NCBI GenBank assembly: GCA_021847485.1
Contig: JAJZRA010000016.1
Coordinates: 1 to 32,204, forward strand
Direction of reading: 5' to 3'
Source of the DNA: a bacterium
Lineage (GTDB): Bacteria > Elusimicrobiota > Elusimicrobia > Elusimicrobiales > UBA9959
Length of the DNA stretch: 32,204 nt
In this document: positions 526-18,965 of the stretch, in pieces
Numbering within the stretch: position 1 is the first letter of the stretch
How the letters are laid out: every line of letters starts with the position of its first letter
The notes under the pieces: model-generated
What the model saw: only the letters and a program-made list of their open reading frames with translations
What the model was told of the DNA's origin: nothing
The model's database searches: none
Position numbers and translations under genes: made by a program

Positions 526-557
526 AAAAAAGAAAGCCCTTTCCAAAGAGAAAGGGC
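526..557 (-). terminator. Riboswitch-linked intrinsic terminator
   Basis: On the minus strand GCCCTTTC (557-550) pairs with GAAAGGGC (543-536) around a 6-nt loop, followed by TTTCTTTTTT that runs straight into the ATG at 525. It lies between the B12 aptamer and the BtuF-like gene, so it is the likely expression platform. Because the U-tract abuts the start codon, the same hairpin could also hide the ribosome site. Confidence 0.8.
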
Positions 558-589
558 CCTTGTTCCCCCTCGGAAATCCCCTCGCGGGG

Positions 590-668
590 TCCGCAGTAGA
601 CCGGGCTTAGCCTTGCGGCATCACCGTTGCGGGGCAGCCGGGGCTTCGCACCCCGTTCCTCTGCGGAT
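590..668 (-). promoter_or_regulatory. Cobalamin riboswitch aptamer
   Basis: Read on the minus strand, the stretch shows the hallmarks of the cobalamin riboswitch. There is a closing stem (CCGCAG near 666-661 with CTGCGG near 596-591). Next comes AGGAA, a GGGGTGCGAAGCCCC stem-loop, the near-invariant core GCTGCCCCGCAACGGT, a short GCCGCAAGGC hairpin, and a degenerate B12 box AGCCCGGTCTACTGC. A second small hairpin (CCCC-GCGA-GGGG) and then the terminator follow. B12 binding is expected to switch off the downstream BtuF-like gene by favouring the terminator. The aptamer is compact, with no peripheral arm visible 5' of the closing stem. Confidence 0.88.
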
Positions 669-674
669 ACTCTG

Positions 675-680
675 ATTATG
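675..680 (-). promoter_or_regulatory. Likely -10 box of the riboswitch transcript
   Basis: CATAAT on the minus strand ends 6 nt before the first base of the aptamer stem (668), which is where transcription would begin. No good -35 box is seen. The box lies just past the U-run of the terminator of the preceding gene, so terminator and promoter are packed together. Confidence 0.45.
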
Positions 681-681
681 C

Positions 682-711
682 CAAAAAGCCGCGGCACGTT
701 TCCACGCGGCT
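682..711 (-). terminator. Intrinsic terminator after the small membrane protein gene
   Basis: Minus-strand AGCCGCG (711-705) pairs with CGCGGCT (692-686), followed by TTTTT. It overlaps the TAG stop (712-710) of the upstream gene and ends the long minus-strand run that starts at hypA. Confidence 0.7.
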
Positions 712-895
712 AGGCTTCCTCCTCTGAAAATATCCGCCGCAGCCCCAGCGCGCAGGCCAGCGGGACGGGCAGGGAGACGAAGCCTATCTTCAGCAGCCTG
801 GGGTCGCGCGTTATCAGCGCGCAGAGCAGGCAGGCCCAGGTCCAGTAGGCCAGGAAAGCGAATATAGGAAGGGCGGCGAAGGTCTTCTTGGACAT
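710..895 (-). CDS. Small two-helix membrane protein, unknown function
   Basis: About 61 residues beginning MSKKTFAALPIFAFLAY. The ATG at 895 follows the TGA of the upstream gene by one base and has GGGG 8 nt ahead; a GTG at 904 in the same frame would add three residues. Two hydrophobic stretches (about residues 6-27 and 37-54) predict two membrane helices, ending in a charged RRIFSEEEA tail. I do not recognise a family. Its position, coupled to the CruF-like carotenoid gene and followed at once by a terminator, makes it the last gene of that operon, perhaps an accessory subunit. The tight coupling supports it being a real gene. Confidence 0.6.
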   Translation of the reverse strand: MSKKTFAALPIFAFLAYWTWACLLCALITRDPRLLKIGFVSLPVPLACALGLRRIFSEEEA

Positions 896-896
896 G

Positions 897-1739
897 TCAG
901 ACACCCCAGAGCGTGAAGTTGACCGGCGGCACCACGTATTTCATAGCGATCACGCCGTAGACCATCAGCAGAGTCAGCACCGCGGCTTTGAGCGCTATCA
1001 GCAGCAGGAAGAACAGCCCGGAGCCTTTCCGGACGCCCCAGCGCGCCGTGATGCGCGGCAGCCGGTCGAAGGCCACGGCGAAAAGGCCTATGACCAGGAA
1101 CCACCCGGCGAAATTGGACAGAGGTATCGAGAAGAGCTTGATGCTCTCGTTCGAGATCCACTTCCACGACTGCCAGTACGGGTGCACCTGCACGGGGTCC
1201 AGCCACAGATCGAGGCTCAGGGCCAGGAACCCGCCGAGGGCGGCCTTGACCCAGATGGAGAGCCTGGGCAGCAGCACGTCGGCGATGTGCACGCAGGCGT
1301 AGGCTATGAAGAACCAGGACAGGCAGATCACCGCCGGGATCTCCCCCCACCAGAAGAAGCCCCGCGTGAAGTAGTAAGTGCCGGAGACGTCCTTGAGCTG
1401 GCTGGAGAAGGCCGAGATCAGGTGGTAGCGCCCCAGCAGCACCCAGACGTTCTCGGCCAGGCCCGTGAAGAAGAACGAGCCGCCCAGGAACATCATGGCC
1501 CCGTAGCGGCCGTACTTGCCCAGCGCGTGGTAGAAGCAGACCGCCCCTATGCCTATAGGGACCAGGTCCAGCAGGAACATCTGCAGGTAGCCGCTGAAGT
1601 TGACGCCGTCGTTAGGCGGCACCGACAGGACCTGGGGGAACAGGTGGTGAAGCACCGTGGAGGCCGCGATCACCGCGGCCATGAAGATCCCTATCGCGAG
1701 GGAAACGTTCTTCTCTTCTGCCGGAAGGGCGGCGTCCAT
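897..1739 (-). CDS. CruF-like carotenoid biosynthesis membrane protein (PF04240)
   Basis: A 280-residue integral membrane protein with about seven hydrophobic segments. Family signatures in order: FTGLAENVWVLLGRYHLI near residue 90, GTYYFTRGFFWWGEIP and the following SWFFIAYACVHIAD, then DLWLDPVQVHPYWQSWKWI, and IPLSNFAGWF near 210. The LDPV and P-x-x-N-F-x-G-W motifs are typical of the CruF/bacterioruberin hydratase family, which acts on the ends of acyclic carotenoids. The real substrate here is unknown. The start codon follows the stop of the FadL-like gene by one base, so the two are probably translated together. No carotenoid backbone genes (phytoene synthase or desaturase) are in view, so they lie elsewhere or the protein has another lipid substrate. 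Confidence 0.72.
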   Translation of the reverse strand: MDAALPAEEKNVSLAIGIFMAAVIAASTVLHHLFPQVLSVPPNDGVNFSGYLQMFLLDLVPIGIGAVCFYHALGKYGRYGAMMFLGGSFFFTGLAENVWVLLGRYHLISAFSSQLKDVSGTYYFTRGFFWWGEIPAVICLSWFFIAYACVHIADVLLPRLSIWVKAALGGFLALSLDLWLDPVQVHPYWQSWKWISNESIKLFSIPLSNFAGWFLVIGLFAVAFDRLPRITARWGVRKGSGLFFLLLIALKAAVLTLLMVYGVIAMKYVVPPVNFTLWGV

Positions 1740-1740
1740 A

Positions 1741-3024
1741 TCAGAAGCGGTAGCGTGCCTCGCCCATCACGTACCAGCCCTTCAGCGAGTAGTCCACGCC
1801 CCCCGCGGTGCGGCGGCCCGCGCCGGCCAGCGCGCCCAGCGTGGTCTCGAAAGGCGACCAGGTCCGGGTCCACGCGGCGGAGAAGCGGTGCATCGGCACG
1901 TCGATGGCCGTGGCGAAGTCTATGCTCTTGGCGTCTATGGCGGGCGTGTCGAAAGCGTAGCCGGCCTCCACCTCGTTCTTCCCGTTCAGGCGCTTCACCG
2001 CTCCGAGGCGGAACTTGTAGGAGTTCTTCCAGTGGTAGGTCTTGCCGGAGCTGTTCAGCAGGCCGACGGGGCTGTCGTAGGTGAGGGCGTTGGAGAAAGC
2101 CTTCCACCAGGTCTGCGTGAAGTCGCAGGAGAGCTTGACCCCGTTACCGGCACGCCAGGCGGCGCCGACGCCGGTGGTGGCCGGGTGGTGCACCGGCATC
2201 TCGAAATCGCTCTGCTGCCGGTAGGCCCCGTTCAGGTAGACCTTTTCTTCGCCCTTCAGCTCCACCCGGGCGCCGCTCCTGGCCACGGCGCCGAAGCGCC
2301 AGCGGTCGTTAAGCTCGTAGGTCACGCCGGCCACGCCTTCCACGCCGTAGCCGTCGGCCTCCTTCTTGTTCTTCTGGGCCATGCCGGCCACCGGGGCCAG
2401 CGTCGGGACGAACGCCCCGGCCGTAGCGCCCCAGCCTATCGTGGACTCCGCGGAGAGCGCGCCGTAGATGACGTTGACTCCCAGGCCGGCCGAGAATTTC
2501 TCGCCGAGCCTGCGCGCGTAGGAGACGTTGCCCACGCCCACGATCACGCTGCCTTCGTAATCGAGAGAGGTCACCAGCGGGTCGCCCGGGGCCGCGTCCC
2601 TGAAATCCGCGCCCTGCAGCAGGGGAGTGTAGGCGCCGGCGGCTATGGCGCTGTCCCCGTCCAGCGGGATCACCGCGCCGAAGGAGCCGATCACGAAACC
2701 TGCCTGGGCGCGGTCCTTGCCGAAGGGGCTGTACGAAGCGCCGGCCCCCAGCGGTATCGTGAAAGAGTTGCCGTCCTTGGAGTAGCTGTAGCCCCCCCGC
2801 AGTTCCAGCCCGGCCTCCCGGCCCTTTACGCCCGAAAGACCGGCCGGGTTCCAGTAGATGGCCGTCCAGTCCGCGTCGTCGGCGATGACGGCCCCTCCGC
2901 GGGCTATCGCCTTGGCGCCGATGCCGTCGAACTCGTAGCCGGAAGCCGCCGCCAGCCCGGGAAAGGCCGCGGCCGAAGCCAGGAACCATACCGCCATACT
3001 CCCCGCATAAGAAGCCTTACGCAT
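1741..3024 (-). CDS. FadL/TodX-like outer-membrane hydrophobic-compound transporter
   Basis: About 427 residues. The start at 3024 (MRKASYAGS) is chosen because GGAGG sits 5 nt ahead; an ATG at 3036 would place that site inside the gene. A signal peptide ends near AAASG. The mature N-terminus, GYEFDGIGAKAIARGGA then DDADWTAIYWNPAGLSG, is the plug signature of the FadL family (PF03349). The rest alternates short beta strands and ends YVMGEARYRF, a C-terminal aromatic as needed for outer-membrane assembly. Such channels admit long-chain fatty acids or other hydrophobic molecules. It lies 75 bp after a sensor kinase and one base before the CruF-like gene, so a lipid or carotenoid-like cargo is plausible but inferred. 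Confidence 0.83.
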   Translation of the reverse strand: MRKASYAGSMAVWFLASAAAFPGLAAASGYEFDGIGAKAIARGGAVIADDADWTAIYWNPAGLSGVKGREAGLELRGGYSYSKDGNSFTIPLGAGASYSPFGKDRAQAGFVIGSFGAVIPLDGDSAIAAGAYTPLLQGADFRDAAPGDPLVTSLDYEGSVIVGVGNVSYARRLGEKFSAGLGVNVIYGALSAESTIGWGATAGAFVPTLAPVAGMAQKNKKEADGYGVEGVAGVTYELNDRWRFGAVARSGARVELKGEEKVYLNGAYRQQSDFEMPVHHPATTGVGAAWRAGNGVKLSCDFTQTWWKAFSNALTYDSPVGLLNSSGKTYHWKNSYKFRLGAVKRLNGKNEVEAGYAFDTPAIDAKSIDFATAIDVPMHRFSAAWTRTWSPFETTLGALAGAGRRTAGGVDYSLKGWYVMGEARYRF

Positions 3025-3099
3025 TTCCACCTCCATGGAAGTCCATCCTCCGCAGATCCGCTCCCGCCGGAGACCCGCGTCCAGCGCGCCCGCCGCGCT

Positions 3100-4386
3100 T
3101 CACGCCAGCGGGAACCGCATTACCGCGCGCAGGCCGCCCTCCGGCAGGTTGAAGAACTGAATATCCCCGTCGTTGCGGACCAGCAGGTCCCGCGTGATCA
3201 GCAGGCCTACGCCGGTGCCGTCCTTCTTGGTAGTGACGGCTTTCCGGAAAAGCTGTTTCAGGAGCTCCGGCTGCATCCCCGGCCCGTTATCGATGACGGA
3301 GATCTCGACTTCGGCCCCCGCCGCCTGCGCGTCCACGGAGACCAGGCGCTCCCCGGCGTTGTCGCGGACCGCCTCCACGGCGTTGCGCAGGACGTTGAAG
3401 AACGCCTGCTGCAGGTCCGCCTTGGCGGCCGTTATCTGCAGGTCCAGGCTGGCCGGGAAAAGTTTCTTTATGGTGACGCCGCGCGCCTGCGGCGAGTAGG
3501 AGATCACCGCGAGCAGCATCTGCAGGAACTCGCCCAGCCGGATCCGCTCCGGGGGATGGGAGGTGGATTTGCCGAACTGCGTGATGTTCTTGAGCGACTC
3601 CACCATCCCGTCCACCACCGCGCTGATATCCCTGAGCGCGGCCGCGTCCTCGGCGCTGTGCCGGCGCAGCATCTCCATCTGGACGTAGCCCGAGATGGAG
3701 GAAAGGGGCGCGCGCAGGTCGTGCGCGATGCGGTGGGCCAGGATGCCTATCTGCGAATGAGCCTCGAGTTCGTTGAGCTTGGAGATGACCGCCTGTTTCT
3801 CGGCGGCCTCCTCCTCGACGGCGCGGCGCAGCTGCCTGATGATGAAGCGGCCGATGGAGCCGGTGACGAACATGAAGACGACTATGGTGGCAACCAGCAG
3901 CAGCGTGGTGGGCAGGCTTGCGTAGACGGCCGAAGCCGAGGCGGAATGCGTCAGGACCCCGAAATACTCGCAGGCTATCAGCGCGGAAAAAAGGAGCGCC
4001 GCCACAGCGACGCTCAGGTGCCGCTCTACGCCGTAAGCGGCCTCGGAGATGAGGATGGCGAAATAGAAGAAGATGAACGGCGAAACTATCCCTCCCGTCA
4101 TATGGACTATGACGGAGACCACGGCCAGGGCCAGGACGCTCAGCGCGGTGATTATCAGGTAGTACCGGCCTTTCAACCGGTCGATAGAGAGATAGAAGGC
4201 GCCGTAAAGGACCGCGCCCGCCATGGAGAAAAAGGCTATCCGCCTGTCGAAAGGGAAGGACGGCAGCAGATAGAAGAACAGGCTGCCGAGCAGGCAGACT
4301 ACGGAAGAGAGCATGGCCTGCTGCCTCAGGTATTTGCGCCCGAGCACCCCTCTCACCAACGCGGCATCGGAGCTAGTTCCCTGCAT
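3100..4386 (-). CDS. Membrane sensor histidine kinase, RegB/PilS-like (kinase 1)
   Basis: 428 residues. The N-terminal half (about 20-200) holds roughly six membrane helices with the motif TGGIVSPFIFFYFAIL, resembling the GGxxNPF quinone loop of RegB. A short coiled segment leads to the H-box AHRIAHDLRAPLSSISGY (His near 221), the N-box DLQQAFFNVLRNAVEAV, and the ATP lid DNGPGM and GTGVGLLIT near the C-terminus, so it should be an active autokinase. GGGAGAAGGA precedes ATG 4386, and the start overlaps the upstream cyclase-like gene by 14 nt. It closely resembles the kinase at 6204-7466, also at DNA level in the N-box region, so the two arose by duplication. No response regulator lies beside it. 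What it senses is not shown; a quinone or redox signal is a guess. Confidence 0.9.
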   Translation of the reverse strand: MQGTSSDAALVRGVLGRKYLRQQAMLSSVVCLLGSLFFYLLPSFPFDRRIAFFSMAGAVLYGAFYLSIDRLKGRYYLIITALSVLALAVVSVIVHMTGGIVSPFIFFYFAILISEAAYGVERHLSVAVAALLFSALIACEYFGVLTHSASASAVYASLPTTLLLVATIVVFMFVTGSIGRFIIRQLRRAVEEEAAEKQAVISKLNELEAHSQIGILAHRIAHDLRAPLSSISGYVQMEMLRRHSAEDAAALRDISAVVDGMVESLKNITQFGKSTSHPPERIRLGEFLQMLLAVISYSPQARGVTIKKLFPASLDLQITAAKADLQQAFFNVLRNAVEAVRDNAGERLVSVDAQAAGAEVEISVIDNGPGMQPELLKQLFRKAVTTKKDGTGVGLLITRDLLVRNDGDIQFFNLPEGGLRAVMRFPLA

Positions 4387-4906
4387 GTTCGAAGTCCTTC
4401 TCCCAGTAGCGTATGAAGGTAGGGGCTATCAGCAGCAGCAGCGCGTAGCCGAAAGGGACTTCCCAGGGGAGGTTCAGCAGAGGTATCATCCCCCAATCCC
4501 AATGCAGCACGTCCTGCCGGTACTGCCACACCCCCAGCCTGGCCCCCACGGCTTCAAGGGGCAGACAGACCAGTATCCCGCTGATTATATCAAAGAAGAA
4601 GATGCGCTTGTCGTGCGGGCGCACGCGGTCGGTCCGGAGCGCCAGCCGGTAGAGCTTCTCCGAGAGCAGTATGACCAGCGGGAACATCACCATCCAGCCG
4701 GTAAGCTCCGCGAAAGGCGCGTCGCGGTAATAGGTCAGCTTGAAATGGTAATCCCAGAGGGGCTCGGTGGCCACCTCCCAGACCACGCCGACGATGGCGC
4801 TGGCGATCATCTCGCCGGTCATGTCGCGCTTGAAAAAGCGCCTGAACACCCACCACATCAGCGGGGCCTGCAGCAGGCCGATGCCCTCGAGTATGTCCAT
4901 GCTCAT
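4373..4906 (-). CDS. Lycopene-cyclase-like membrane protein, tandem paralog B
   Basis: 177 residues from ATG 4906, which shares an ATGA with the stop of the preceding gene; the open frame extends further upstream but only as antisense-like sequence. About five hydrophobic helices are seen. It aligns end to end with the 181-residue neighbour: both carry QxPLxWWxFRRF, ExATEPLWDYH, VRPxDKxIFxFD, GVWxYRxDxLxWDWG, PWE and FGYxLL. The second half (GVW, then about 14 residues, then W-G-x-x-P-L and P-W-E) recalls the W/PxEE core of heterodimeric lycopene cyclases (CrtYc/CrtYd), but the paired glutamates are replaced by PWE. I cannot assign a reaction. Kinase 1 begins before its stop codon. It is probably a membrane enzyme or binding subunit working with its neighbours. 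Confidence 0.7.
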   Translation of the reverse strand: MSMDILEGIGLLQAPLMWWVFRRFFKRDMTGEMIASAIVGVVWEVATEPLWDYHFKLTYYRDAPFAELTGWMVMFPLVILLSEKLYRLALRTDRVRPHDKRIFFFDIISGILVCLPLEAVGARLGVWQYRQDVLHWDWGMIPLLNLPWEVPFGYALLLLIAPTFIRYWEKDFEHAGN

Positions 4907-5448
4907 TTGCCGCCCCCGGGCACCACCTCGTCGAAAGTACGCTCCCAGGCGCGCACGAAAGTGGGCCCCACCAGCATCAGCAGGCAGTAGCCGAACAGCG
5001 CCTCCCACGGCATCTTCACCAGCGGTACCGTACCCCAGTCCCAGTTGAGCCGGTCGTAGCGGTAGGTCCAGACGCCGGCCTTCACGCCCAGCGTCTCTAT
5101 CGGGAAAGAGATCAGCACGGCCGCGAGCAGGTCGAAGAGGAAGATGGACTTGTCGCCCGGCCGCACGGAGGGCCTCTTCCTGAAGAACTTGTAGAGGGTC
5201 TCGGAGAAATATACCACCAGCGTGAACATGACCGCCCAGCTCAGTATTATCCCGACGGGCGTATCCTTGTAGAAGGTTATCCGCAGGTGGTAGTCCCAGA
5301 GCGGCTCGGTCGCGAACTCGTTGAAGAGCCCTATCATCGCGCCGGCGATCATCTCCCCGGCCACGTTGCGCCCGGCGAACCGGCGGAAAAGCCACCAGAC
5401 CAGCGGGACCTGCACGTACATCCAGATCTCGAACAGCGTCAGCGCCAT
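4903..5448 (-). CDS. Lycopene-cyclase-like membrane protein, tandem paralog A
   Basis: 181 residues, MALTLFEIWMYVQVPLVWW onward, with about five membrane helices. By eye roughly half of its positions match the next gene. Two acidic/aromatic clusters recur within the chain: EFATEPLWDYHLRITFYKD in the first half, and GVWTYRYDRLNWDWG with PWEALFGY in the second. This suggests an internal two-fold repeat, as in fused lycopene cyclase domains. GGGAGAA lies a few bases before ATG 5448. The gene overlaps the CrtYd-like gene upstream by 10 nt and its paralog downstream by 4 nt, so all must be made together. The likeness to lycopene cyclases is motif-based and weak; a carotenoid or isoprenoid substrate is inferred mainly from the neighbours. 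Confidence 0.7.
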   Translation of the reverse strand: MALTLFEIWMYVQVPLVWWLFRRFAGRNVAGEMIAGAMIGLFNEFATEPLWDYHLRITFYKDTPVGIILSWAVMFTLVVYFSETLYKFFRKRPSVRPGDKSIFLFDLLAAVLISFPIETLGVKAGVWTYRYDRLNWDWGTVPLVKMPWEALFGYCLLMLVGPTFVRAWERTFDEVVPGGGK

Positions 5449-5831
5449 CGTTCTCCCTTCTCCCGCCCGGCGAAGAAGCCTTCGAAGGCGTGCATCAGTA
5501 TCACGACGAAGAGCGGCGGGAACCAGTAGTAGAGCAGCGGTTCCTCTATCGGGATGCCGAAGACGGCCGGGCCGAGGGTGCGGTTGGGGTTCCAGATCCA
5601 GTGGCCGCGCGAGACCGAGAAGAACTCGGCGAAGAACATCAGGACCTCGAAGGTGGCCACCAGCGCCGCCGCGGCCTTCCAGTTGACCCGCTCCCGCGCG
5701 GCCCGGTAGAGCGGGATGACGAAAAGGAAGAACGGCGCGGCCAGGACGACGCTGGCCGGCCAGCGTTTCTGCGCCGTGGCGTCCTTCTTTTTCCTGTCCC
5801 CGTCGCTGAGAAGCTCGTCTATATCAGGCAT
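5439..5831 (-). CDS. Lycopene cyclase domain protein (CrtYd-like)
   Basis: 130 residues. A charged N-terminus (MPDIDELLSDGDRKKK) precedes three membrane helices. The motif FEVLMFFAEFF, then RGHWIWNPNRTLGP and VFGIPIEEPLLYYW, is the core of the CrtYc/CrtYd lycopene cyclase family (W-x-W, then G-I-P-I-E-E). In that family two small subunits, or a fused protein, form beta- or epsilon-ionone rings on carotenoids with the paired glutamates in the active site, and those glutamates are present here. It overlaps the CrtYc-like gene upstream by 8 nt, which fits a heterodimer. No other carotenoid backbone enzyme is in the window, so ring formation on lycopene remains a prediction. Confidence 0.72.
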   Translation of the reverse strand: MPDIDELLSDGDRKKKDATAQKRWPASVVLAAPFFLFVIPLYRAARERVNWKAAAALVATFEVLMFFAEFFSVSRGHWIWNPNRTLGPAVFGIPIEEPLLYYWFPPLFVVILMHAFEGFFAGREKGERWR

Positions 5832-6144
5832 CTTTTTTAAACAGCTTGGCGTAGGAGAGGTAGACGGCCAGGCAGAACGGCGTGGCGCCGAACCAGAAGA
5901 CGAACTCCTCCACCGGCGCGCCCCCTATCCGCCAGCCCACCAGGCGGTCTATCTTCTCCGAGAAGAACCAGACGTCGAACTTAAGAAAAAGGTATTCCAT
6001 GACCACCGAGACGGCGGCCATCGCGGCCGAGGCGGCCCAGAAGCCCTTGCGGCGGGCCCGGGGCAGCCGGCCCAGCAGGAAGAACGCGAACAGCAGGGCG
6101 GGCACCCAGAAGAGGACTGTGTAGGTTATCAGGTAGACCGGCAT
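5824..6144 (-). CDS. Lycopene cyclase domain protein (CrtYc-like)
   Basis: 106 residues from ATG 6144 (MPVYLITYTVLFW); a TTG at 6159 is the only longer start and has its G-run too close. Three membrane helices are predicted (about 4-25, 37-57, 80-100). Between helices 2 and 3 it shows MEYLFLKFDVWFF and RIGGAPVEEFVFWFG, the W and P-x-E-E core of the CrtYc half of heterodimeric lycopene cyclases. Size and topology fit that subunit. It heads a chain of four overlapping membrane-protein genes. The 59 bp before it hold a possible -10 (TATCAT, minus strand, about 6171-6176), so it may have its own promoter besides read-through from kinase 2. Confidence 0.72.
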   Translation of the reverse strand: MPVYLITYTVLFWVPALLFAFFLLGRLPRARRKGFWAASAAMAAVSVVMEYLFLKFDVWFFSEKIDRLVGWRIGGAPVEEFVFWFGATPFCLAVYLSYAKLFKKDA

Positions 6145-6203
6145 GTTGTCTGAAGTCAACCCCCGGTCAATGATAGCATGTTTCGGCCGCCGGAGAAAGG
6201 CCT

Positions 6204-7466
6204 TCAGCCGATCGGCAGGCGGGCCGCTACTTCCAGCCCCCCCTCGGGCCGGTTGCGCAGCTCCACGTCGCCGCCGTTGCGGCGCAGCAGGTCGCGCGTT
6301 ATGATCATGCCGACCCCGGTGCCTTCCTTCTTGGTGGTAATGGACCTCTTGAAGATGGAGGGCAGCAGCTCCGGCAGTATGCCGGGCCCGTTGTCCGCGA
6401 TGGCCACCACCGCGTCGCCGTTTTCGGCGCGGACCGACACCTCGACGAGCTTCTCGCCGGGATTGTCGCGCACGGCCTCGACGGCGTTCTTAAGGACGTT
6501 GAAGAAGGCCTGCTGCAGGTCGGCCCGGGAGGCCGACACCAGCCCCCCCCCGCCGTAGTTCCGTTTGAAGGCCACGCCTTCGGCCTGCGGCGAGAACCTG
6601 ACTATGGCCAGCAGCGTGTCCATGAACTCGTGCAGCACTATCCGCTCGGTCCGGCCGCCCCCGGCCCGGCCGAAGCGCGTGATGCCGCGCAGCGACTCTG
6701 ACATGTTGGCCACCACGTCCTCCAGCTCCCTGAGCGTGGCCTTTTCGGCAGGGGGCTTCTCTTTGAGCGATTCCACCTGGATATAGCCGGAGATGGAGGC
6801 TATCGGGCCGCGCAGGTCGTGCGCGATGCGGTGGGCCAGCACGCCCAGCTGCGTAGTGGAGTTGAGCTCCGAGAACTTGCGGACGAGGGCGTCCTTCTCG
6901 GAGGCCTCCTGCGCTATCGCCGAGCGCAGGTTGCGGATGATCCGGTCGCTCAGGTTCTTGGTCAGGGCCAGGTACGGGACCAGCAGCGCGGAGATTATTA
7001 GCGGGAAAGCCGGGCGCGCGTAAGCCTCGGCAGCCCAGGGGGCCGGGTTCGGCAGGGCGCCGTAATAGATGCCCCAGACCACCACCAGGTAGCCCAGGGC
7101 GCTGACCGGCACCGTCAGCGGGTTCTCCAGGCCGTAGATGGCCTCGGAGACCAGGATGGCCATGTAGAGGAAAGGCAGCGGGGAGACCACGCCGCCGGTA
7201 TAGTAGATCGAGATGGTTATTATGACGGAGCCCACCTGGCTGAGCGCTATGCCCGCCGTGCGGTAGCAGTTGCGGAAGATCCAGTCGAAAAAGAGGAAAT
7301 AGAGGGCGTAGCTGCAGGACGAAACGAGGGAGAACCAGGCGACCTTGTTGGGGAAGGGCAGCTTGCCCGCGAAGAGGAGGAAGGTGGCGGTGAAGCCCAG
7401 CACGGCAGCCATCAGCGCGTTGAAGCGCAGGGCCGTCCTGGCCTTATCGCGGTAATACCCCGCCAT
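6204..7466 (-). CDS. Membrane sensor histidine kinase, RegB/PilS-like (kinase 2)
   Basis: 420 residues. About six N-terminal helices carry YYTGGVVSPLPFLYMAIL, the counterpart of kinase 1's GGIVSPF loop, followed by AIYGLENPLTV. The catalytic part has H-box AHRIAHDLRGPIASISGY (His near 215), N-box DLQQAFFNVLKNAVEAV, DNGPGI and GTGVGMIIT, all intact. The ATG follows the TAG of the HypB-like gene with no base between, so it is translationally coupled to hydrogenase maturation genes. Kinase 1, 1.8 kb downstream, is a close paralog; the four cyclase-like genes lie between them. There is no receiver or output protein next to it. The GGxxSP loop suggests quinone or membrane redox sensing by analogy with RegB, which I cannot confirm. 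Confidence 0.9.
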   Translation of the reverse strand: MAGYYRDKARTALRFNALMAAVLGFTATFLLFAGKLPFPNKVAWFSLVSSCSYALYFLFFDWIFRNCYRTAGIALSQVGSVIITISIYYTGGVVSPLPFLYMAILVSEAIYGLENPLTVPVSALGYLVVVWGIYYGALPNPAPWAAEAYARPAFPLIISALLVPYLALTKNLSDRIIRNLRSAIAQEASEKDALVRKFSELNSTTQLGVLAHRIAHDLRGPIASISGYIQVESLKEKPPAEKATLRELEDVVANMSESLRGITRFGRAGGGRTERIVLHEFMDTLLAIVRFSPQAEGVAFKRNYGGGGLVSASRADLQQAFFNVLKNAVEAVRDNPGEKLVEVSVRAENGDAVVAIADNGPGILPELLPSIFKRSITTKKEGTGVGMIITRDLLRRNGGDVELRNRPEGGLEVAARLPIG

Positions 7467-11753: not shown

Positions 11754-12230
11754 TCACAAAGAATTGAAGTAATCTACCAATTTTCGGCCGGCCTCTTCCA
11801 CTTCCGGGGACAGCCCCTCCGCGTAGTCCAGCGACTTGGCCTGCACGCCCACCACCACCAGCTCCGCCCCGGTGTCCTCCCTCACTATCGAGAAGGTCAC
11901 CGACAGCGGGAAGCTGTGGGTGGAGATCGGCATGGCCTGGTTGATGTCCTCCAGCGGGATCACGCGCAGTTCCCCCGCCCGCCCCTTGAAGTGCGCGGCG
12001 TCCACCAGGATGATCTTGTCGGGTTTCCAGTCTATGGCGGTCTGCGCCACGCTCTCCGGCGTGGTGCCGGCGTCCAGCAGGCGCAGCTCCGGGCGCGAGA
12101 ACTTCACGCCCGAGCAAACGTAAGGGCCGACGCCATCGTCGGCCCTTAACGTACTGCCCAGCGTTATCACCAGCGTCCGGCCCTTCGGGGCCAGCGCGGC
12201 GGCTACCTCTTTACTCCACGAAGCTGACAT
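11754..12230 (-). CDS. Hydrogenase maturation endopeptidase (HycI/HyaD family)
   Basis: 158 residues. TLRADDGVGPYV (Asp31/32), DAGTTPES, ILVDAAHF (Asp77) and PISTHSFPL (His105) match the nickel-contacting Asp/Asp/His and fold of the HycI/HybD proteases, which clip the C-terminal tail of the large subunit once nickel is in. The glycine loop reads LGSTLRADD where the family normally has G-x-G-N, an odd change. The gene overlaps the end of hydA by 20 nt in another frame, so the protease is made with its own substrate, whose tail (after His434) would be the octapeptide YLDVSFVE. This is a strong context-supported call. Confidence 0.9.
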   Translation of the reverse strand: MSASWSKEVAAALAPKGRTLVITLGSTLRADDGVGPYVCSGVKFSRPELRLLDAGTTPESVAQTAIDWKPDKIILVDAAHFKGRAGELRVIPLEDINQAMPISTHSFPLSVTFSIVREDTGAELVVVGVQAKSLDYAEGLSPEVEEAGRKLVDYFNSL

Positions 12231-13539
12231 CGAGGTAGTGCGCGGAGCACGAGATGCACGGGTCGTAGGCCCGCACCAGCATCTCCAGGTGCAGCCGGAT
12301 CTCGTCCTTCTTCAGGTTCAGGATCTCCGGCAGGAACTTGGCGAAGTCGTGCTCGATGTTGTTGACGTTCTGGTTGGTCGGGATGATGCAGTTGGCGGCC
12401 TTGATCATGCCGTCCTTGTCGGTGACGTAGTTGTGGTGCAGGATGCCGCGCGGCACCTCCACCGAGCCCACGCCGTCGCCGGCGCGCACCGGCACCGAGC
12501 CCTTCTCGTTGACGCCCACGGTGATCTGCTGGGAGTAGTCCAGGCCGTGCTTCTTGAGGTCCTTCAGGATCGCCAGCGCGTGGTGGTAGCAGTGGATGAT
12601 CTCCACCACCTGCGCCATAGTGTTCATGAAGGGGTTATGGCAGACCGGCTTGAGCCCGATCTCCTTGGCGTAGGCCTTGGCCTTCGGGTGCAGCTTGTCG
12701 TAGTTCAGGTTGAACCGGGCGAGCGCGCCGACGAACAGGCTGTCCTTGTTCCACTTGGTGAACTTGGCCGAGGAGCGGGGATCGATGAACTCGTTGGTGG
12801 ACTTGCGGTACTCCTTCCTGGAGACGCGCTTGCCCTCGGAGGAGCCGATATCGCCCAGCAGCATCGGGTACTCGCCGTCGTCGCTGACGAGGGCCACGTA
12901 CTCGGTCTCGCGGTGGAAGTTCGGCAGCTTGAGCGTCTTGGCGAGCTTGAGCAGCGGCTCCAGCTCGGCGGTCATGCCCTCCATGATCTCGATCTGCCTG
13001 TCGATCTCCTTCGGGCTGGGCAGCTTGGTCCAGCCGCCGGCGATCATCGTGATCGGGTGCGTATGGCGCCCGACGAGGATGTCGCAGACGTCGTTGACGG
13101 CCTTCTTCAGGCGCAGGATCTGGCGCACGGTCTTGTTGTGCGTGGCCACGAGCGGCACGAAGGAGGGCACGCCGAGAGCGTCGGGGGCGACCAGCAGGAA
13201 GGCGTGCAGCACGTGGCTGTCGAGGAACTCGTAGTCCAGCAGCAGCTTCCTGAGCTTGATCGTCTGCTCGGTCGGCGTCACGCCCAGCGCGTCCTCGGCG
13301 GCGGCGACGGAGGCCAGCGAGTGGCCGCAGGAGCAGATGCCGCAGATGCGGCTGGTGATGTGCTGCGCCTCGAAGATGCTGCGGCCGCGCAGCATGCCCT
13401 CGAACAGGCGGGGCGTCTCCACGACGTGGAACTCGCACTTCTCTATCTTGCCGTTCTTGACGTTGGCGACGATGTTGCCGTGGCCCTCTACGCGGGTCAC
13501 GTACTCTACCTTGATATCCAGGTCCTTAGTGGCAGCCAT
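12211..13539 (-). CDS. hydA: [NiFe] hydrogenase large (alpha) subunit, group 3b-like
   Basis: 442 residues. The proximal nickel motif RICGICSCGH (Cys66, Cys69) and the C-terminal DPCISCSAH (Cys428, Cys431, His434) give all four Ni-Fe ligands. The tail YLDVSFVE after His434 is the expected cleavage peptide. It carries the catalytic NiFe(CN)2CO site, splitting or making H2. Neighbours in the order beta, gamma, delta, alpha match the hydBGDA sulfhydrogenase operons of Thermococcales and the bacterial group 3b enzymes, which are cytoplasmic and use NADP(H). The start overlaps the hydD stop (TAATG). Group 3b is inferred from subunit composition and length; phylogeny would settle it. Confidence 0.94.
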   Translation of the reverse strand: MAATKDLDIKVEYVTRVEGHGNIVANVKNGKIEKCEFHVVETPRLFEGMLRGRSIFEAQHITSRICGICSCGHSLASVAAAEDALGVTPTEQTIKLRKLLLDYEFLDSHVLHAFLLVAPDALGVPSFVPLVATHNKTVRQILRLKKAVNDVCDILVGRHTHPITMIAGGWTKLPSPKEIDRQIEIMEGMTAELEPLLKLAKTLKLPNFHRETEYVALVSDDGEYPMLLGDIGSSEGKRVSRKEYRKSTNEFIDPRSSAKFTKWNKDSLFVGALARFNLNYDKLHPKAKAYAKEIGLKPVCHNPFMNTMAQVVEIIHCYHHALAILKDLKKHGLDYSQQITVGVNEKGSVPVRAGDGVGSVEVPRGILHHNYVTDKDGMIKAANCIIPTNQNVNNIEHDFAKFLPEILNLKKDEIRLHLEMLVRAYDPCISCSAHYLDVSFVE

Positions 13540-14333
13540 TATTTAGCACCTTCCTTGCACTTGTTGTACATCTCGAACTTCTTGGTGATGAGTTCGGGCT
13601 TGAGGTTGTATTTGGAGATGACGTCCTTGGCGGCGTTCTTCGCGGGGTTCTTCACCTCGCCGCGGCAGCCGTAGCAGATGTTGCCGTTGTTGACGCACCA
13701 GGAGTTGCAGCCGGCCTTGGTCCACGGGCCCAGGCAGGCCACGCCGCGCTCGTACATGCAGACGTTCTCGTTGAGCTTGCACTCGGAGCAGACCGGGTTG
13801 TCCGGCACGGTGTAGGGCAGGCCGCGCAGCGCGTGCTTCACCACCTCTATGATCTCCGGCGGGTACACCGGGCAGCCGTTGATGTAGTAGTCCACCTTGA
13901 CCACCTGGTCGATCGCCCTGGTCGGCGTGCTGTCGAAGAGCTTGTAGTCCTTGCCGTAGACGCTCTGGCGGATCTCGTCGAGCTCGAAGCCGTTCTTCAT
14001 GCCGTTGACGCCGCCGGTGCAGGCGCAGGCGCCGTAGGCTATCAGCACCTTGGCGCGGGCGCGGATCTTCTTCAGGCGCTCCTCGGCGTGATGGTCGCCG
14101 ATCGAGCCCTCAATGAAGACCACGTCGTAATCCTTGTCCCATTTCTCGCTGATGGCCTCGCGGAACTCCACCACGTCCACGGCCCCCAGGATGTCGAGCA
14201 GCAGCTCGCCGAGGTTGGTCATCTGCAGCTGGCAGCCCTCGCAGGAGGCGAAGTCGAAGAAGGCCACCTTGGGCTTGGCGGCGGCCTTCGGGGCCTTCGC
14301 CGGAGCTTTCGTATCTTTCTTAGCGGTTTTCAT
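13539..14333 (-). CDS. hydD: [NiFe] hydrogenase small (delta) subunit
   Basis: 264 residues. FFDFASCEGCQLQMTNL begins the hydrogenase small-subunit fold with the proximal cluster cysteines, followed by YGACACTGGVNGM and YINGCPVYPPEI. The C-terminal half has a cysteine-rich region (CSECKLNENVCMY, CLGPWTKAGCNSWC, ICYGCRG) for the medial and distal Fe-S clusters. It conducts electrons between hydA and the diaphorase module. Residues 1-22 are an unusual Lys/Ala/Pro-rich stretch with histone-H1-like composition and no twin-arginine signal, so the enzyme is cytoplasmic. CGGAGAAC precedes the ATG; 15 bp separate it from hydG. Confidence 0.93.
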   Translation of the reverse strand: MKTAKKDTKAPAKAPKAAAKPKVAFFDFASCEGCQLQMTNLGELLLDILGAVDVVEFREAISEKWDKDYDVVFIEGSIGDHHAEERLKKIRARAKVLIAYGACACTGGVNGMKNGFELDEIRQSVYGKDYKLFDSTPTRAIDQVVKVDYYINGCPVYPPEIIEVVKHALRGLPYTVPDNPVCSECKLNENVCMYERGVACLGPWTKAGCNSWCVNNGNICYGCRGEVKNPAKNAAKDVISKYNLKPELITKKFEMYNKCKEGAK

Positions 14334-14348
14334 CGTATGTTCTCCGTA

Positions 14349-15182
14349 TTAAAGTTTCTTCGAGTCCTTCACCTCTTCGTAGGTGAAGGTGGGGCCGTCC
14401 TTGCAGCAGTAGTAGTTCTTCGGGTGGTCTATCTGGCAATGGCCGCACTTGCCCATACCGCACTTCATGTGCCGCTCGAGCGACAGGACGATCTGCTTCT
14501 CCGGCAGGTTCTTCTTCAGGAGCTCGGCGATGACGAACTTGTACATGATCGGGGGGCCGACCACGACGCCGAAGGTCTTCTCCGGGTTGATCGTCACGCC
14601 GGGGATCAGGCTGGTGATCAGGCCGACGTTGCCCTTCCAGTCCGGGGCCGAGCGGTCCACGGTGCAGGAGAAGTTGACGTCCATGCGCTTCTGCCAGAGC
14701 TTGATCTCGTCGCCGAAGAGCATGTCGGTCGGCGTCTTGCAGCCGAGCAGGATGTCCACCTTGCCGAACTCGCGGCGGTTGTCCATCACATAGTTGATCA
14801 GCGAGCGCAGCGGCGCTATGCCGAGGCCGCCGGCCACGAACAGCAGGTCGTTGCCGGTCATCAGCTTCACCGGGAACGGCTTGCCGAACGGCCCGCGGAT
14901 GCCGAGCCAGTCGCCCTTGCCGAGCGAGTGCATATGCTTGGTCAGGCGGCCGGCCGAGCGCACGGTCAGCTCGAAAGAGCCGCGCTTCGTGGGGCTGGAG
15001 CAGACGGAGATCGGCGCCTCGCCGACGCCGTAGAGTTCTACCTGCACGAACTGCCCGGGCTCGTGGTCCAGGTCGCCGTCCTCGAGCTTTATGTCGAACC
15101 ACTTCTCGGTGGCCGTCATCTGCTTGGCGGCGATGATCTGCCCTTTGCGGAGTTTCCAGTTGGAGTTGTGTATCTCGGTCAT
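14349..15182 (-). CDS. hydG: Hydrogenase FAD/NAD(P)-binding (gamma) subunit
   Basis: 277 residues of the ferredoxin-NADP reductase class. The flavin domain includes EPGQFVQVELYGVGEAPISVCSSP; the nucleotide domain includes LLFVAGGLGIAPLRSLI and FGVVVGPPIMYKFV. A C-terminal 2Fe-2S motif follows, CGMGKCGHCQID with CCKDG. The same layout is found in dihydroorotate dehydrogenase subunit B and sulfhydrogenase gamma. It passes electrons between NAD(P)H and the Fe-S subunits. It lies between hydB and hydD with short gaps (9 and 15 bp), and GGGGAC precedes the start. The name follows Thermococcales usage. Confidence 0.92.
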   Translation of the reverse strand: MTEIHNSNWKLRKGQIIAAKQMTATEKWFDIKLEDGDLDHEPGQFVQVELYGVGEAPISVCSSPTKRGSFELTVRSAGRLTKHMHSLGKGDWLGIRGPFGKPFPVKLMTGNDLLFVAGGLGIAPLRSLINYVMDNRREFGKVDILLGCKTPTDMLFGDEIKLWQKRMDVNFSCTVDRSAPDWKGNVGLITSLIPGVTINPEKTFGVVVGPPIMYKFVIAELLKKNLPEKQIVLSLERHMKCGMGKCGHCQIDHPKNYYCCKDGPTFTYEEVKDSKKL

Positions 15183-15191
15183 GATGTCCCC

Positions 15192-16226
15192 TTATTTGCT
15201 CTCGGCGGCCAGGGCCTTCAGGGTGTCCTTCAGGTTGATCTTGGCCATGCAGGTGCGGGTGCAGCGGCCGCAGCCGGTGCAGAACGCGCGGTTGAACTTG
15301 TCGAGCGGATACTTGAACTTGCGGTAGTAGCGGTGGCGCTGCCTGTGCGCGCGCTCCTCGCGGAAGTTCTCCCCGCCGGCCACGGTGGCGAACGTCTCGA
15401 ACTGGCAGGAATCCCAGGTGCGGTTGCGCGACCCGGTCTTCATGTCGAGGTTGATGCTGTCCGTCATGTCGAAGCAGTAACAGGTGGGGCAGACGTTGGT
15501 GCAGTTGCCGCAGCTGACGCAGCGGGAGCCCACGTCGTGCCAGACCTTGCTGTCCATGCCCTTCGCGAAGACCTCGGTGAGCTTTTTCGGCTCCACGCCG
15601 ATCTCGTTGCCGAAGGCCTCTTTCTTGGCCTCGCGCACCTTGCCGAGCGCGGTCATGTCGGCGACGGAGGCCTTGCCCAGGCCCATACCCTCAACCAGTT
15701 CCTCGCCCTTCTGCGTGTTGACGTGGATGATCCACTTGTCGCCGATGTCGGTGAAGAACAGGTCGTAGCCGCCGTTAGGGTAGTGGTTGCCCACCAGCGC
15801 GCAGCTGGCGTTGCCGTCGCAGTACTTGTTGCACTCGAGGCCGATGATGACTATGTTCTCCTTGCGGAGCAGGTAATTGTAGTCGCGGGGCCGCTCGGAG
15901 AAGACCATGTTCAGGCACTGGATGCCGGCCAGGTCGCAGGTGTGCACCGCGAAGACGGCCAGCTTCTCGGCCTCGAGGACGGCCTTGTCCTGCGGCTTGC
16001 CGCCGTTCAGGTCGAAGTCCAGCATCTTCTCGCGCGGCGGCATGAAGTACTTCTTCGGCGGCAGGATCGTCGGGATGTAATCCATCGAGATCTGCTCGGC
16101 CTCGGTTACCTCTTCGAAAGCAAAGTTATTGTAGCCCTTGGCTACAGGGGCGTAGACCTTCATCTGCTTGGCGAGGCTCTTGATAAAGCAGTTGAGGTTG
16201 TCTTTCTGCAGTATGTGGTAATTCAC
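15192..16226 (-). CDS. hydB: Hydrogenase Fe-S (beta) subunit
   Basis: 344 residues from GTG 16226, fixed by GGAGGT 6 nt ahead. The C-terminal half carries two 4Fe-4S motifs, CVSCGNCTNVCPTCYC and CTGCGRCTRTC, with further cysteines (HTCDLAGIQC, ECNKYC) in the N-terminal half. This is the 4Fe-4S dicluster subunit B of sulfhydrogenase/group 3b enzymes (family related to HydB/AsrA), linking the flavin subunit to the catalytic pair. It is the first gene of the operon hydB-hydG-hydD-hydA-protease. In Thermococcales this module also reduces sulfur to H2S; whether that applies here is unknown. Confidence 0.92.
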   Translation of the reverse strand: MNYHILQKDNLNCFIKSLAKQMKVYAPVAKGYNNFAFEEVTEAEQISMDYIPTILPPKKYFMPPREKMLDFDLNGGKPQDKAVLEAEKLAVFAVHTCDLAGIQCLNMVFSERPRDYNYLLRKENIVIIGLECNKYCDGNASCALVGNHYPNGGYDLFFTDIGDKWIIHVNTQKGEELVEGMGLGKASVADMTALGKVREAKKEAFGNEIGVEPKKLTEVFAKGMDSKVWHDVGSRCVSCGNCTNVCPTCYCFDMTDSINLDMKTGSRNRTWDSCQFETFATVAGGENFREERAHRQRHRYYRKFKYPLDKFNRAFCTGCGRCTRTCMAKINLKDTLKALAAESK

Positions 16227-17001: not shown

Positions 17002-18140
17002 GAGTCCTGACCCTCCTGCTGGTCCTGGCCTGCGCGGCGCCCGCCGCCGCGGCCGAAAAGCAGGTCCTGATCCGCCTTTTTTCCCTGCACAAGGTCTCCG
17101 CCGTAAATTTGGAGACCACCGCGCCGGTACGCGCCGCCGGCGCCCAGTTCTCCGGCAAGGCCAGGATAGCCGTCAAAGGCCAGCTGGTGGTCATGACCGG
17201 CGCCCTCCAGGCCGGCCCGGCCAAGTCCATAACCGTGCACGCCTCGGCCCCGGTCCGGCTGTCCGGCCCCGGCCTGCCGCGCCGCAGCTACACCGGGGAC
17301 ATCGTCTTCACGTCCGCCAGGAAGCAGCTCAAGATCGTCAACTCCGTCCCGCTGGAGGACTATATCGCCGGCGTAGTCACCGGCGAGGCCTCGGACCTCT
17401 CCCAGCCCGAGGCGTACAAGGCCCAGGCCGTCGCCGCCCGCACCTACGTCCTCAAGCACCTGCGCATCCACGCCGGGGAAGGCTACAACCTCTGCGACTC
17501 CACGCACTGCCAGCTCTACACCGGCCAGGGCGCGGTCAGCGCCAAGGCCCTCGCCGCGGCCCGGGCCACCAGGAACGAGGTCCTCTACTACAAAGGCGAG
17601 CTCGCCGCAACCTTCTACCACTCCATCTGCGGCGGCCGCACCGAGCGGATGACCGACGTCTGGCCTTTCGAGGCCAAGCCCTACCTGATCTCGGTGCGCG
17701 ACGGGCCGCCCGGGCACCCCTACTGTTCCATAGCGCCCAACTTCAGGTGGAAGACCAAGATCTATTTCAGCGGCCTTACCCGCCTGGCGCGCCGGGCCGG
17801 CTGGATCCTGCCCGACGAGGAGGCCCGCGGGCTCAAGATCTCCCGCTGGGGCGCCTCGGGCCGGGCGGCCGAGCTGGAGCTGCGCACGCAGCGCAGGACG
17901 GTCGGGCTCGGCGCCACCGAGTTCTACCACGGCATAGGCCGGCGGGCCGGCTGGAACGCGGTGCGCAGCACTTTCTTCCGCATCCTCAACGGCCAGGACT
18001 ACGTCCTGCTCGACGGCAAGGGCAACGGCCACGGCGTCGGCATGTGCCAGTGGGGCGCGGAGGGCATGGCCCGCAAGGGCTTCAAATACCGGGACATCCT
18101 GAGACATTACTACCCCGGCACGGAGATAGGACATGACTGA
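16998..18140 (+). CDS. SpoIID/LytB-domain murein lytic protein
   Basis: 380 residues starting at TTG 16998, which overlaps the sixA stop as TTGA and is preceded by GGGAGAAGG. A signal peptide (RVLTLLLVLACAAPAAAA) is followed by a region of beta strands and the SpoIID core: LEDYIAGVVTGEASDLSQPE (catalytic Glu near 130), YKAQAVAARTYVLKHL, CDSTHCQLYTG, FYHSICGGRTE and, near the end, GNGHGVGMCQWGAEGMA with ILRHYYPGT. SpoIID enzymes cleave peptidoglycan glycan strands lacking stem peptides; in non-sporulating bacteria related proteins act in division or wall remodelling. It overlaps uppP by 8 nt, so wall turnover and lipid carrier recycling are encoded together. Confidence 0.9.
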   Translation: MRVLTLLLVLACAAPAAAAEKQVLIRLFSLHKVSAVNLETTAPVRAAGAQFSGKARIAVKGQLVVMTGALQAGPAKSITVHASAPVRLSGPGLPRRSYTGDIVFTSARKQLKIVNSVPLEDYIAGVVTGEASDLSQPEAYKAQAVAARTYVLKHLRIHAGEGYNLCDSTHCQLYTGQGAVSAKALAAARATRNEVLYYKGELAATFYHSICGGRTERMTDVWPFEAKPYLISVRDGPPGHPYCSIAPNFRWKTKIYFSGLTRLARRAGWILPDEEARGLKISRWGASGRAAELELRTQRRTVGLGATEFYHGIGRRAGWNAVRSTFFRILNGQDYVLLDGKGNGHGVGMCQWGAEGMARKGFKYRDILRHYYPGTEIGHD

Positions 18141-18909
18141 GCTTCACGCGGCGGTTCTCGGCGTACTGCAGGGGGCGGGCGAGTTCCTGCCCGTCTCGAG
18201 CTCGGCGCACCTGGCGCTGGCCCCCCGCCTGCTGGGCTGGCAGTACCAGGGCCTGGCCTACGACGTGATGCTGCACCTCGGCACGCTGGGCGCGGTGGCC
18301 CTCTATTTCGCCAAGGACTGGCTCAAGATCTTCCGCGACGGCTTCTCCGCCCCCCGCTCCCCCGACGGCCGCCTGCTGTGGCTGCTGGTCCTGGCCTCGC
18401 TGCCGGCCGCGGTCGCCGGCGTCCTGCTCAACCACCTGGCCGAGACCGCCTTCCGCAACCCGCTCTGGATAGCCTTCAACCTGGTCTTCTTCTCGGTCTT
18501 CATCTGGCTGGCGGACAGGCGCCCGCGCCAGACCCTCGCCGAGAGCGCGCTGACCGCGCGCGACGCGCTGCTGATAGGCCTCGCGCAGTGCCTGGCGCTG
18601 ATGCCGGGCGCCTCGCGCTCCGGCATGACCATCATGGCCGCCCTGTTCCTGGGCTACCGCCGGGCCTCGGCGGCGCGCCTCTCCTTCCTGCTGTCCACGC
18701 CGGTGATCTTCGGCGCGGCGCTGCTGGAATCCCGCAAGATCGCCCCGGCCCAGCTGGACGCGGCCTTCGCGTGGGGGCTGGGCGCGGCCTTCCTGTCCGG
18801 CCTGGCCTTCATCTGGCTGCTGATGTCCTGGCTGCAGAAGCGCGACCTGAAACCCTTCCTCGCCTACAGGGTCGCCCTGGGCGCCTACATTTTCTGGCTC
18901 TTCCGCTGA
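18133..18909 (+). CDS. uppP: Undecaprenyl-diphosphatase UppP (BacA)
   Basis: 258 residues with about seven to eight helices. LQGAGEFLPVSSSAHL (residues 12-27) and PGASRSGMTIM (near 157) are the two active-site motifs of BacA/UppP; the first normally reads LQGLTEFLPVSSSGHL, so a Thr-to-Gly change sits beside the catalytic Glu. The enzyme dephosphorylates undecaprenyl diphosphate in the inner membrane to recycle the carrier for peptidoglycan and polysaccharide synthesis, and can confer bacitracin tolerance. It is the third gene of the sixA-spoIID-uppP run and ends at a strong bidirectional terminator. Confidence 0.93.
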   Translation: MTELHAAVLGVLQGAGEFLPVSSSAHLALAPRLLGWQYQGLAYDVMLHLGTLGAVALYFAKDWLKIFRDGFSAPRSPDGRLLWLLVLASLPAAVAGVLLNHLAETAFRNPLWIAFNLVFFSVFIWLADRRPRQTLAESALTARDALLIGLAQCLALMPGASRSGMTIMAALFLGYRRASAARLSFLLSTPVIFGAALLESRKIAPAQLDAAFAWGLGAAFLSGLAFIWLLMSWLQKRDLKPFLAYRVALGAYIFWLFR

Positions 18910-18936
18910 TCGGTTCCGGGAGGCCGCAGCCCCGAT

Positions 18937-18965
18937 AAAAAAAGCCCGGCGGTCCGGGCTTTTTT
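18937..18965. terminator. Bidirectional intrinsic terminator
   Basis: AAAAAAAGCCCGG, CGGT loop, CCGGGCTTTTTT. It lies between convergent uppP and kinase 3 and has an A-run and T-run on opposite sides, so it can end both transcripts. The kinase stop codon abuts it. Confidence 0.9.

Follow-up and report, generated by a model that had tools for sequence, protein, structure and literature searches.

A conserved Elusimicrobiota operon combining lycopene-cyclase-type membrane proteins with a histidine kinase family

What do lycopene-cyclase-type membrane proteins do when they are encoded in one operon with histidine kinases, in organisms that mostly have no carotenoid pathway? The question is raised by the minus strand between 7466 and 710 of a 32,204-nt stretch of DNA (contig JAJZRA010000016.1 of assembly GCA_021847485.1; hereafter the window), which makes up contig 41 in a genome of 2.2 Mb (83% complete) from the phylum Elusimicrobiota, uncultured groundwater bacteria. 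In the order of transcription it encodes a first kinase (HK1), a CrtYc-like protein (YC), a CrtYd-like protein (YD), two paralogs of ~180 aa (PA and PB), a second kinase (HK2), a FadL-type protein, a CruF-type protein and a small membrane protein. The operon is real and conserved, and it consists of known kinds of component in a new combination, together with a PA family for which Pfam and NCBIfam hold no model. As to what it does, our tentative reading is that a two-component module is coupled here to membrane proteins by which an acyclic isoprenoid lipid is bound or modified, a possibility that we hold with somewhat less than even confidence.

6204..7466, minus strand: HK1 (upstream copy), histidine kinase with six transmembrane (TM) segments; HATPase_c 67 bits; HisKA 20.6 bits, cut-off 26.9
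5824..6144, minus strand: YC, 106 aa, ATG start; lycopene-cyclase-domain protein with the motif APVEEF; TIGR03462 43 bits, cut-off 39.4
5439..5831, minus strand: YD, 130 aa; lycopene-cyclase-domain protein with the motif IPIEEPLL; PF18916 31.8 bits, cut-off 27
4903..5448, minus strand: PA, 181 aa; membrane protein from an undescribed family
4373..4906, minus strand: PB, 177-aa paralog of PA
3100..4386, minus strand: HK2 (module-linked copy), six-TM histidine kinase; HATPase_c 67 bits; HisKA 25.6 bits, below cut-off
1741..3036, minus strand: FadL/TodX-family outer-membrane channel; PF03349 88 bits, cut-off passed
897..1739, minus strand: CruF-type membrane protein; PF04240 52 bits, cut-off 25
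710..895, minus strand: small membrane protein of 61 aa; its place behind the CruF-type gene is conserved

Conservation of the gene order

The original prediction, made from the window alone, described a near-gapless minus-strand chain, and all of its open reading frames are present as described: adjacent genes either share between a few and 14 nt or are spaced within about 65 nt, the overlaps of PB being 4 nt with PA and 14 nt with HK2, and the genes called FadL-like and CruF-like do pass the cut-offs of PF03349 and PF04240. HK1 and HK2 are 43% identical over 414 aa, PA and PB 49% over 174 aa. The prediction had also made its fate depend on whether relatives share the gene order, and they do: YC-YD-PA(-PB)-HK(-FadL) recurs across several Elusimicrobiota families and in unrelated genomic contexts, far beyond chance.

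At the level of the genus, PF18916 proteins were found in 13 of 32 genomes and in 0 of 29 more distant relatives sampled in the same search. The 13 genus loci that were read carry the same block, mostly between Mrp and BtuF; different surroundings were seen in two loci, one on contig 34 of genome G022, with YC-YD-PA-HK only, and the other on contig 21 of G014, which runs from YC to CruF. At three loci, YC-YD or YC-YD-HK lies downstream of an APC gene. The module recurs in differing surroundings and therefore behaves as a unit. Across the phylum, a PA profile matched 22 of 341 Elusimicrobiota genomes, spread over 12 genera, and a YD profile matched 24; carriers of YC/YD/PA number 25 when the fragmentary copy of G139 is counted. 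A YD scan of named genomes returned such loci, one Coatesbacteria contig and one Chitinivibrionales contig; the YC-YD pair is thus present in these two groups as well.

The kinase follows the module closely. Searched with a profile of the six-TM sensor domain (E below 1e-20), its family is present in 35 of the 341 genomes, that is, in all 25 carriers and in 10 others, with weak matches only elsewhere; Fisher's test for the co-occurrence of kinase and module gives p 3e-30 without phylogenetic correction and 0.002 within the genus. In 25 of the 29 loci of our architecture table, the next gene downstream of YD, PA or YX is that of the kinase, and in 18 a FadL gene comes immediately after the kinase. 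YX is an extra protein of ~255 aa with two cyclase-type halves, encoded between PA and the kinase at four distant loci, those of G162, G163, G167 and G171. The core module consists of YC, YD, PA (with or without PB), a kinase of this one family and FadL, to which the window adds the CruF-type protein and a duplicate kinase. The paralogous kinase pair that first drew attention is genuine in the window, but the rule is one kinase, placed downstream of PA, and the position of the HK1-type copy was seen in this genus only; two kinases as the defining feature of the system were rejected.

Could the block simply be a chance cluster of unrelated membrane genes? Within the family it does often sit beside HypA-Mrp and BtuF, which are seemingly unrelated neighbours, but its identical order in unrelated contexts and its strong association with the kinase and with PF04240 make such an explanation extremely improbable.

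As for the surroundings in the window itself, HypA and then Mrp precede HK1 in transcription order on the minus strand. A NiFe-hydrogenase operon (11754-16226, minus strand), which encodes a maturation protease, large and small subunits, and FAD/NAD-binding and iron-sulphur subunits, lies near HypA and the Mrp-type P-loop protein. A link to hydrogenase, suggested by HypA-Mrp, was discarded as not general, distant copies of the module standing in other contexts. On the other side, the gene for the 61-aa protein is followed by an element resembling an adenosylcobalamin (AdoCbl, B12) riboswitch (550-685, minus strand), which at 41.2 bits stays below the gathering score of 50 and precedes a BtuF-like gene (1-546); BtuF and the next gene recur behind the module in relatives.

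Cyclase-type proteins and isoprenoid context

YC and YD are like the heterodimeric lycopene cyclase CrtYc/CrtYd in being adjacent, small, mutually homologous membrane proteins that pass family cut-offs and carry a PxEE motif each. The claim that both keep this core is confirmed by relatives: P77, E79 and E80 of YC (which also scores 25.5 bits against PF18916, just under the cut-off of 27) are conserved across 28 aligned sequences, and PxEE is kept in 26 of 26 relatives of YD. By profile comparison, YC and YD are homologous (hhalign 93%), and so are YC, YD and YX among one another (93-96%); a structure model of YX, built from a two-sequence alignment, had a pLDDT of 42 and was not used. YC-YD distances correlate beyond the species proxy, Mrp (partial r 0.42, p 0.02; 11 loci), as expected for a heterodimer, where this p-value, like those for the other co-variations below, is without correction for multiple tests. 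Unlike CrtYc/CrtYd, however, YC and YD always share a genome with a single family of kinase, as well as with PA/PB and FadL, and 21 of their 25 carriers are without a CrtI-like desaturase.

This last point bears on the proposal that YC and YD form an ordinary lycopene cyclase whose companion carotenoid genes lie elsewhere in the genome. Such a cyclase would fit with the family cut-offs passed by both proteins and with the presence of SQS/PSY-family genes, two of which lie on contig 44 of the window's genome, and in G151 two genes of the CrtI family, both above the cut-off, enclose one for an aldehyde dehydrogenase. Yet genes of the SQS/PSY family occur in 39 of 41 relatives, including relatives without the module, and no CrtI-like match at E<=1e-15 was found in 21 of the 25 carriers, among them the window's 83%-complete genome and many that are at least 90% complete. 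Only G151 is over the CrtI cut-off, with weaker full-length homologs in G002, G022 and G139. An ordinary carotenoid cluster is disfavoured by this absence, and we regard the proposal as very improbable. The original statement that phytoene synthase and desaturase are missing holds for the block, where no prenyl synthase or desaturase was seen at any locus read. Elsewhere in the genome, where the prediction had suggested a look for crtB and crtI, there are SQS/PSY-family genes but no CrtI-like match at E<=1e-15.

Other isoprenoid genes were seen in these genomes. The CrtI-family pair of G151, on contig 46 (L146:5786-10273), flanks the aldehyde dehydrogenase gene in a manner reminiscent of a C30 carotenoid cluster, and is not beside the module. 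UbiA-family genes are present in most genomes of the genus. The squalene-hopene cyclase domain had no match in any of 36 genomes, and a hopanoid link was dropped.

The isoprenoid flavour that had been read into the locus is upheld by the presence of two unrelated carotenoid end-group enzyme families, one of which, PF04240, is confined to the operon: only seven PF04240 genes exist among the 341 genomes, and all seven lie inside it. Homologs of the 61-aa protein accompany the CruF-type gene in 6 of 6 other loci. Like the carotenoid hydratase CruF, the window protein passes the PF04240 cut-off; unlike CruF, it misses the TIGR03460 equivalog by far (32.4 against 154.7 bits), being a member of the broader PF04240 family only, and the carotenoid pathway is missing in most carriers. 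CrtY-type cyclases and CruF-type hydratases both act on an acyclic carotenoid end, at its terminal double bond. By analogy, therefore, a squalene-type molecule or a quinone or polyprenol tail is a reasonable guess at the substrate of the cyclase-like and CruF-type proteins.

Four lycopene-cyclase-like proteins were counted originally. The count stands for YC (TIGR03462) and YD (PF18916), but PA and PB match nothing over cut-off in Pfam and NCBIfam, where the best hit is TIGR03462 at E=0.22. The C-terminal half of the PA family gives a weak profile match to YC (hhalign 41%) across a Glu...GxWxY...PxE stretch. An AlphaFold2 model of PA (29 sequences; pLDDT 88, pTM 0.83) has five long helices, with short strands following helices 2 and 4, and a Foldseek search of the PDB gives it one probable match only, to MvINS, an Insig homolog from mycobacteria (4XU4; prob 0.99, E 0.031, TM 0.46). 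A sequence profile of PA found no convincing solved relative in the PDB, and a viral fold library gave nothing convincing. PA is like MvINS in being a small helical membrane protein with a weak match in fold, and unlike it in the lack of a sequence match, in a TM-score of 0.46 and in its genomic setting. PA may have an Insig/cyclase-like fold, which the model offers as a lead.

The kinase family and its candidate regulators

Both kinases have intact catalytic boxes, with HATPase_c over and HisKA just below cut-off, and the H-box and the N and G boxes are generally conserved in the kinase alignment where the sequence is complete. The sensor domain has a GGxxSP motif in 31 of 31 aligned kinases (GGVVSP at residue 91 of HK1, GGIVSP at residue 98 of HK2). 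RegB kinases sense ubiquinone via the sequence GGXXNPF (PMC8191878). The family is like RegB/PrrB/ActS in the six predicted TM segments of HK1, in a loop that resembles this quinone site and in a full-length but weak profile match to NF033792; it is unlike them in having Ser for Asn in the loop, such that the GGXXNPF heptapeptide is not matched, and in scoring only 82 and 62 bits against an NF033792 cut-off of 350. The likeness of the loop thus makes a quinone-like kinase ligand a lead, not a test. A third histidine kinase of the window (minus strand), without GGxxSP, adjoins a BacA/UppP-type gene on the plus strand (18133-20257).

In a midpoint-rooted tree of 48 kinases, module-linked copies from outside the genus lie in deep branches, and upstream (HK1-type) and solitary copies fall mostly in a shallower group. 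From this tree we infer that the module-linked kinase is ancestral and that HK1 is a duplicate able to outlive the module. Co-variation of the kinase with FadL is weakly significant (partial r 0.25, p 0.02; 11 loci).

The original prediction noted that no response regulator is present. This is correct for the block in the window, but copies in other lineages do have a regulator as neighbour. In G162, G163 and G167, the first gene upstream of YC codes for a helix-turn-helix (HTH_17-type) domain and a receiver domain, a receiver occupies this place at a contig edge in G171, an HTH-receiver gene is divergent to YC on the Coatesbacteria contig, and a CheY-like gene precedes YC in G014. Homologs of the HTH-receiver protein are found in 32 of 32 genomes of the genus regardless of the module, and as candidates for the cognate regulator they were dismissed as uninformative on that ground; a cognate regulator acting in trans in the window's genus is possible, though unproven. 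The HTH-receiver regulator of the genus (G000:C28:9996-10550 and homologs) mostly has a divergently encoded neighbour, a second receiver protein. Elsewhere in the window, a plus-strand gene (22870-24198) encodes a receiver domain followed by what appears from its sequence to be a metallo-beta-lactamase-type domain.

A possible isoprenoid-linked two-component module

How might these parts work together? In the reading that we tentatively prefer, YC and YD would pair as a heterodimer of cyclase type, which would act on the terminal isoprene of an acyclic isoprenoid or at the least bind it, with squalene-type C30 compounds and quinone or polyprenol tails as candidate ligands. PA and PB, possibly of the same broad fold, would keep hold of the lipid or present it, the CruF-type protein would modify end groups of the same kind, and FadL would pass a hydrophobic compound across the outer membrane. 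The kinase would monitor the lipid or the state of the membrane via the six-TM domain that carries its GGxxSP loop, and would signal to an HTH-receiver regulator, whose gene adjoins YC in some distant lineages and presumably lies in trans here. Physical coupling, ligand, predicted enzymatic activity and the direction of signalling are all parts that we infer. We prefer this reading because the gene order is kept, the kinase accompanies every carrier, PF04240 is confined to the operon and PxEE is kept in YC and YD, and because regulators adjoin YC elsewhere, the GG..SP motif is invariant, SQS/PSY genes are present and PA resembles MvINS. The wider idea of a membrane module with kinases is partly supported, through the conserved order and the 25 of 25 carriers with a kinase.

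Several observations weigh on the other side. Sequence comparison suggests a kinship of PA/PB with YC/YD, but homology is unproven, and the fold match of PA to 4XU4 is weak at a TM of 0.46. No regulator adjoins the window's copy of the module, and the Coatesbacteria YC-YD pair has no member of the kinase family on its short contig. The kinase and YC/YD show no co-variation beyond the Mrp species proxy (partial r 0.12, p 0.25; 11 loci), and thus direct coupling rests on gene order and co-occurrence. Finally, ten genomes have the kinase without YC/YD/PA, mostly in the HypA-Mrp to BtuF interval; the kinase therefore does not need these proteins, which argues against an obligate receptor.

The solitary kinases lend themselves to an alternative, regulated biosynthesis, in which YC, YD, YX where present, PA and the CruF-type protein would be enzymes that modify an isoprenoid (squalene, a quinone tail or polyprenol, for instance) and the kinase would sense something else, such as quinone redox state, and merely switch the pathway. 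A kinase that persists alone must have an input of its own, and its RegB-like loop, the PxEE motifs and the confinement of the CruF-type protein to the operon all agree with this view. It is harder to reconcile with the lack of a prenyl synthase or desaturase in the operon at every locus read, with the fact that only one minimal set, free of the CruF-type protein, is common, and with the lack of any enzyme relative of PA/PB, and we consider it possible but doubtful.

It is tempting to turn the argument around and to suppose that YC, YD, PA and PB are silent as catalysts and gate the kinase as subunits that bind lipid, much as in Insig-type sterol sensing, given that MvINS is the best fold match of PA and that the kinase is in all 25 carriers and directly downstream in 25 of 29 loci. 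By this analogy, a multi-subunit receptor of cyclase/Insig-like fold would give bacteria a two-component system for sensing isoprenoids, with domains of carotenoid enzymes put to new use as its parts. Retention of the catalytic-type PxEE by YC and YD, the ten genomes with the kinase alone and the lack of kinase-YC/YD co-variation speak against silent subunits, and both the receptor-only model and the sensing system it implies seem to us unlikely.

A look through the literature on the cyclase domain, by name and together with histidine kinases and Elusimicrobia, and on terpenoids in Elusimicrobia, in which the gene order itself was not a search term and most subscription journals were not covered, turned up no such operon. 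If the preferred reading, of a two-component module coupled to isoprenoid-binding or -modifying proteins, is true, carotenoid-type cyclase domains would have been re-used in a signalling module, in organisms mostly without a carotenoid pathway, and the undescribed PA family would gain a setting. For annotation, the lesson would then be one of caution: genes labelled 'lycopene cyclase domain' in these genomes should not be equated with carotenoid synthesis. For a largely uncultured phylum, the module would provide a first handle on how isoprenoid lipids are sensed or modified.

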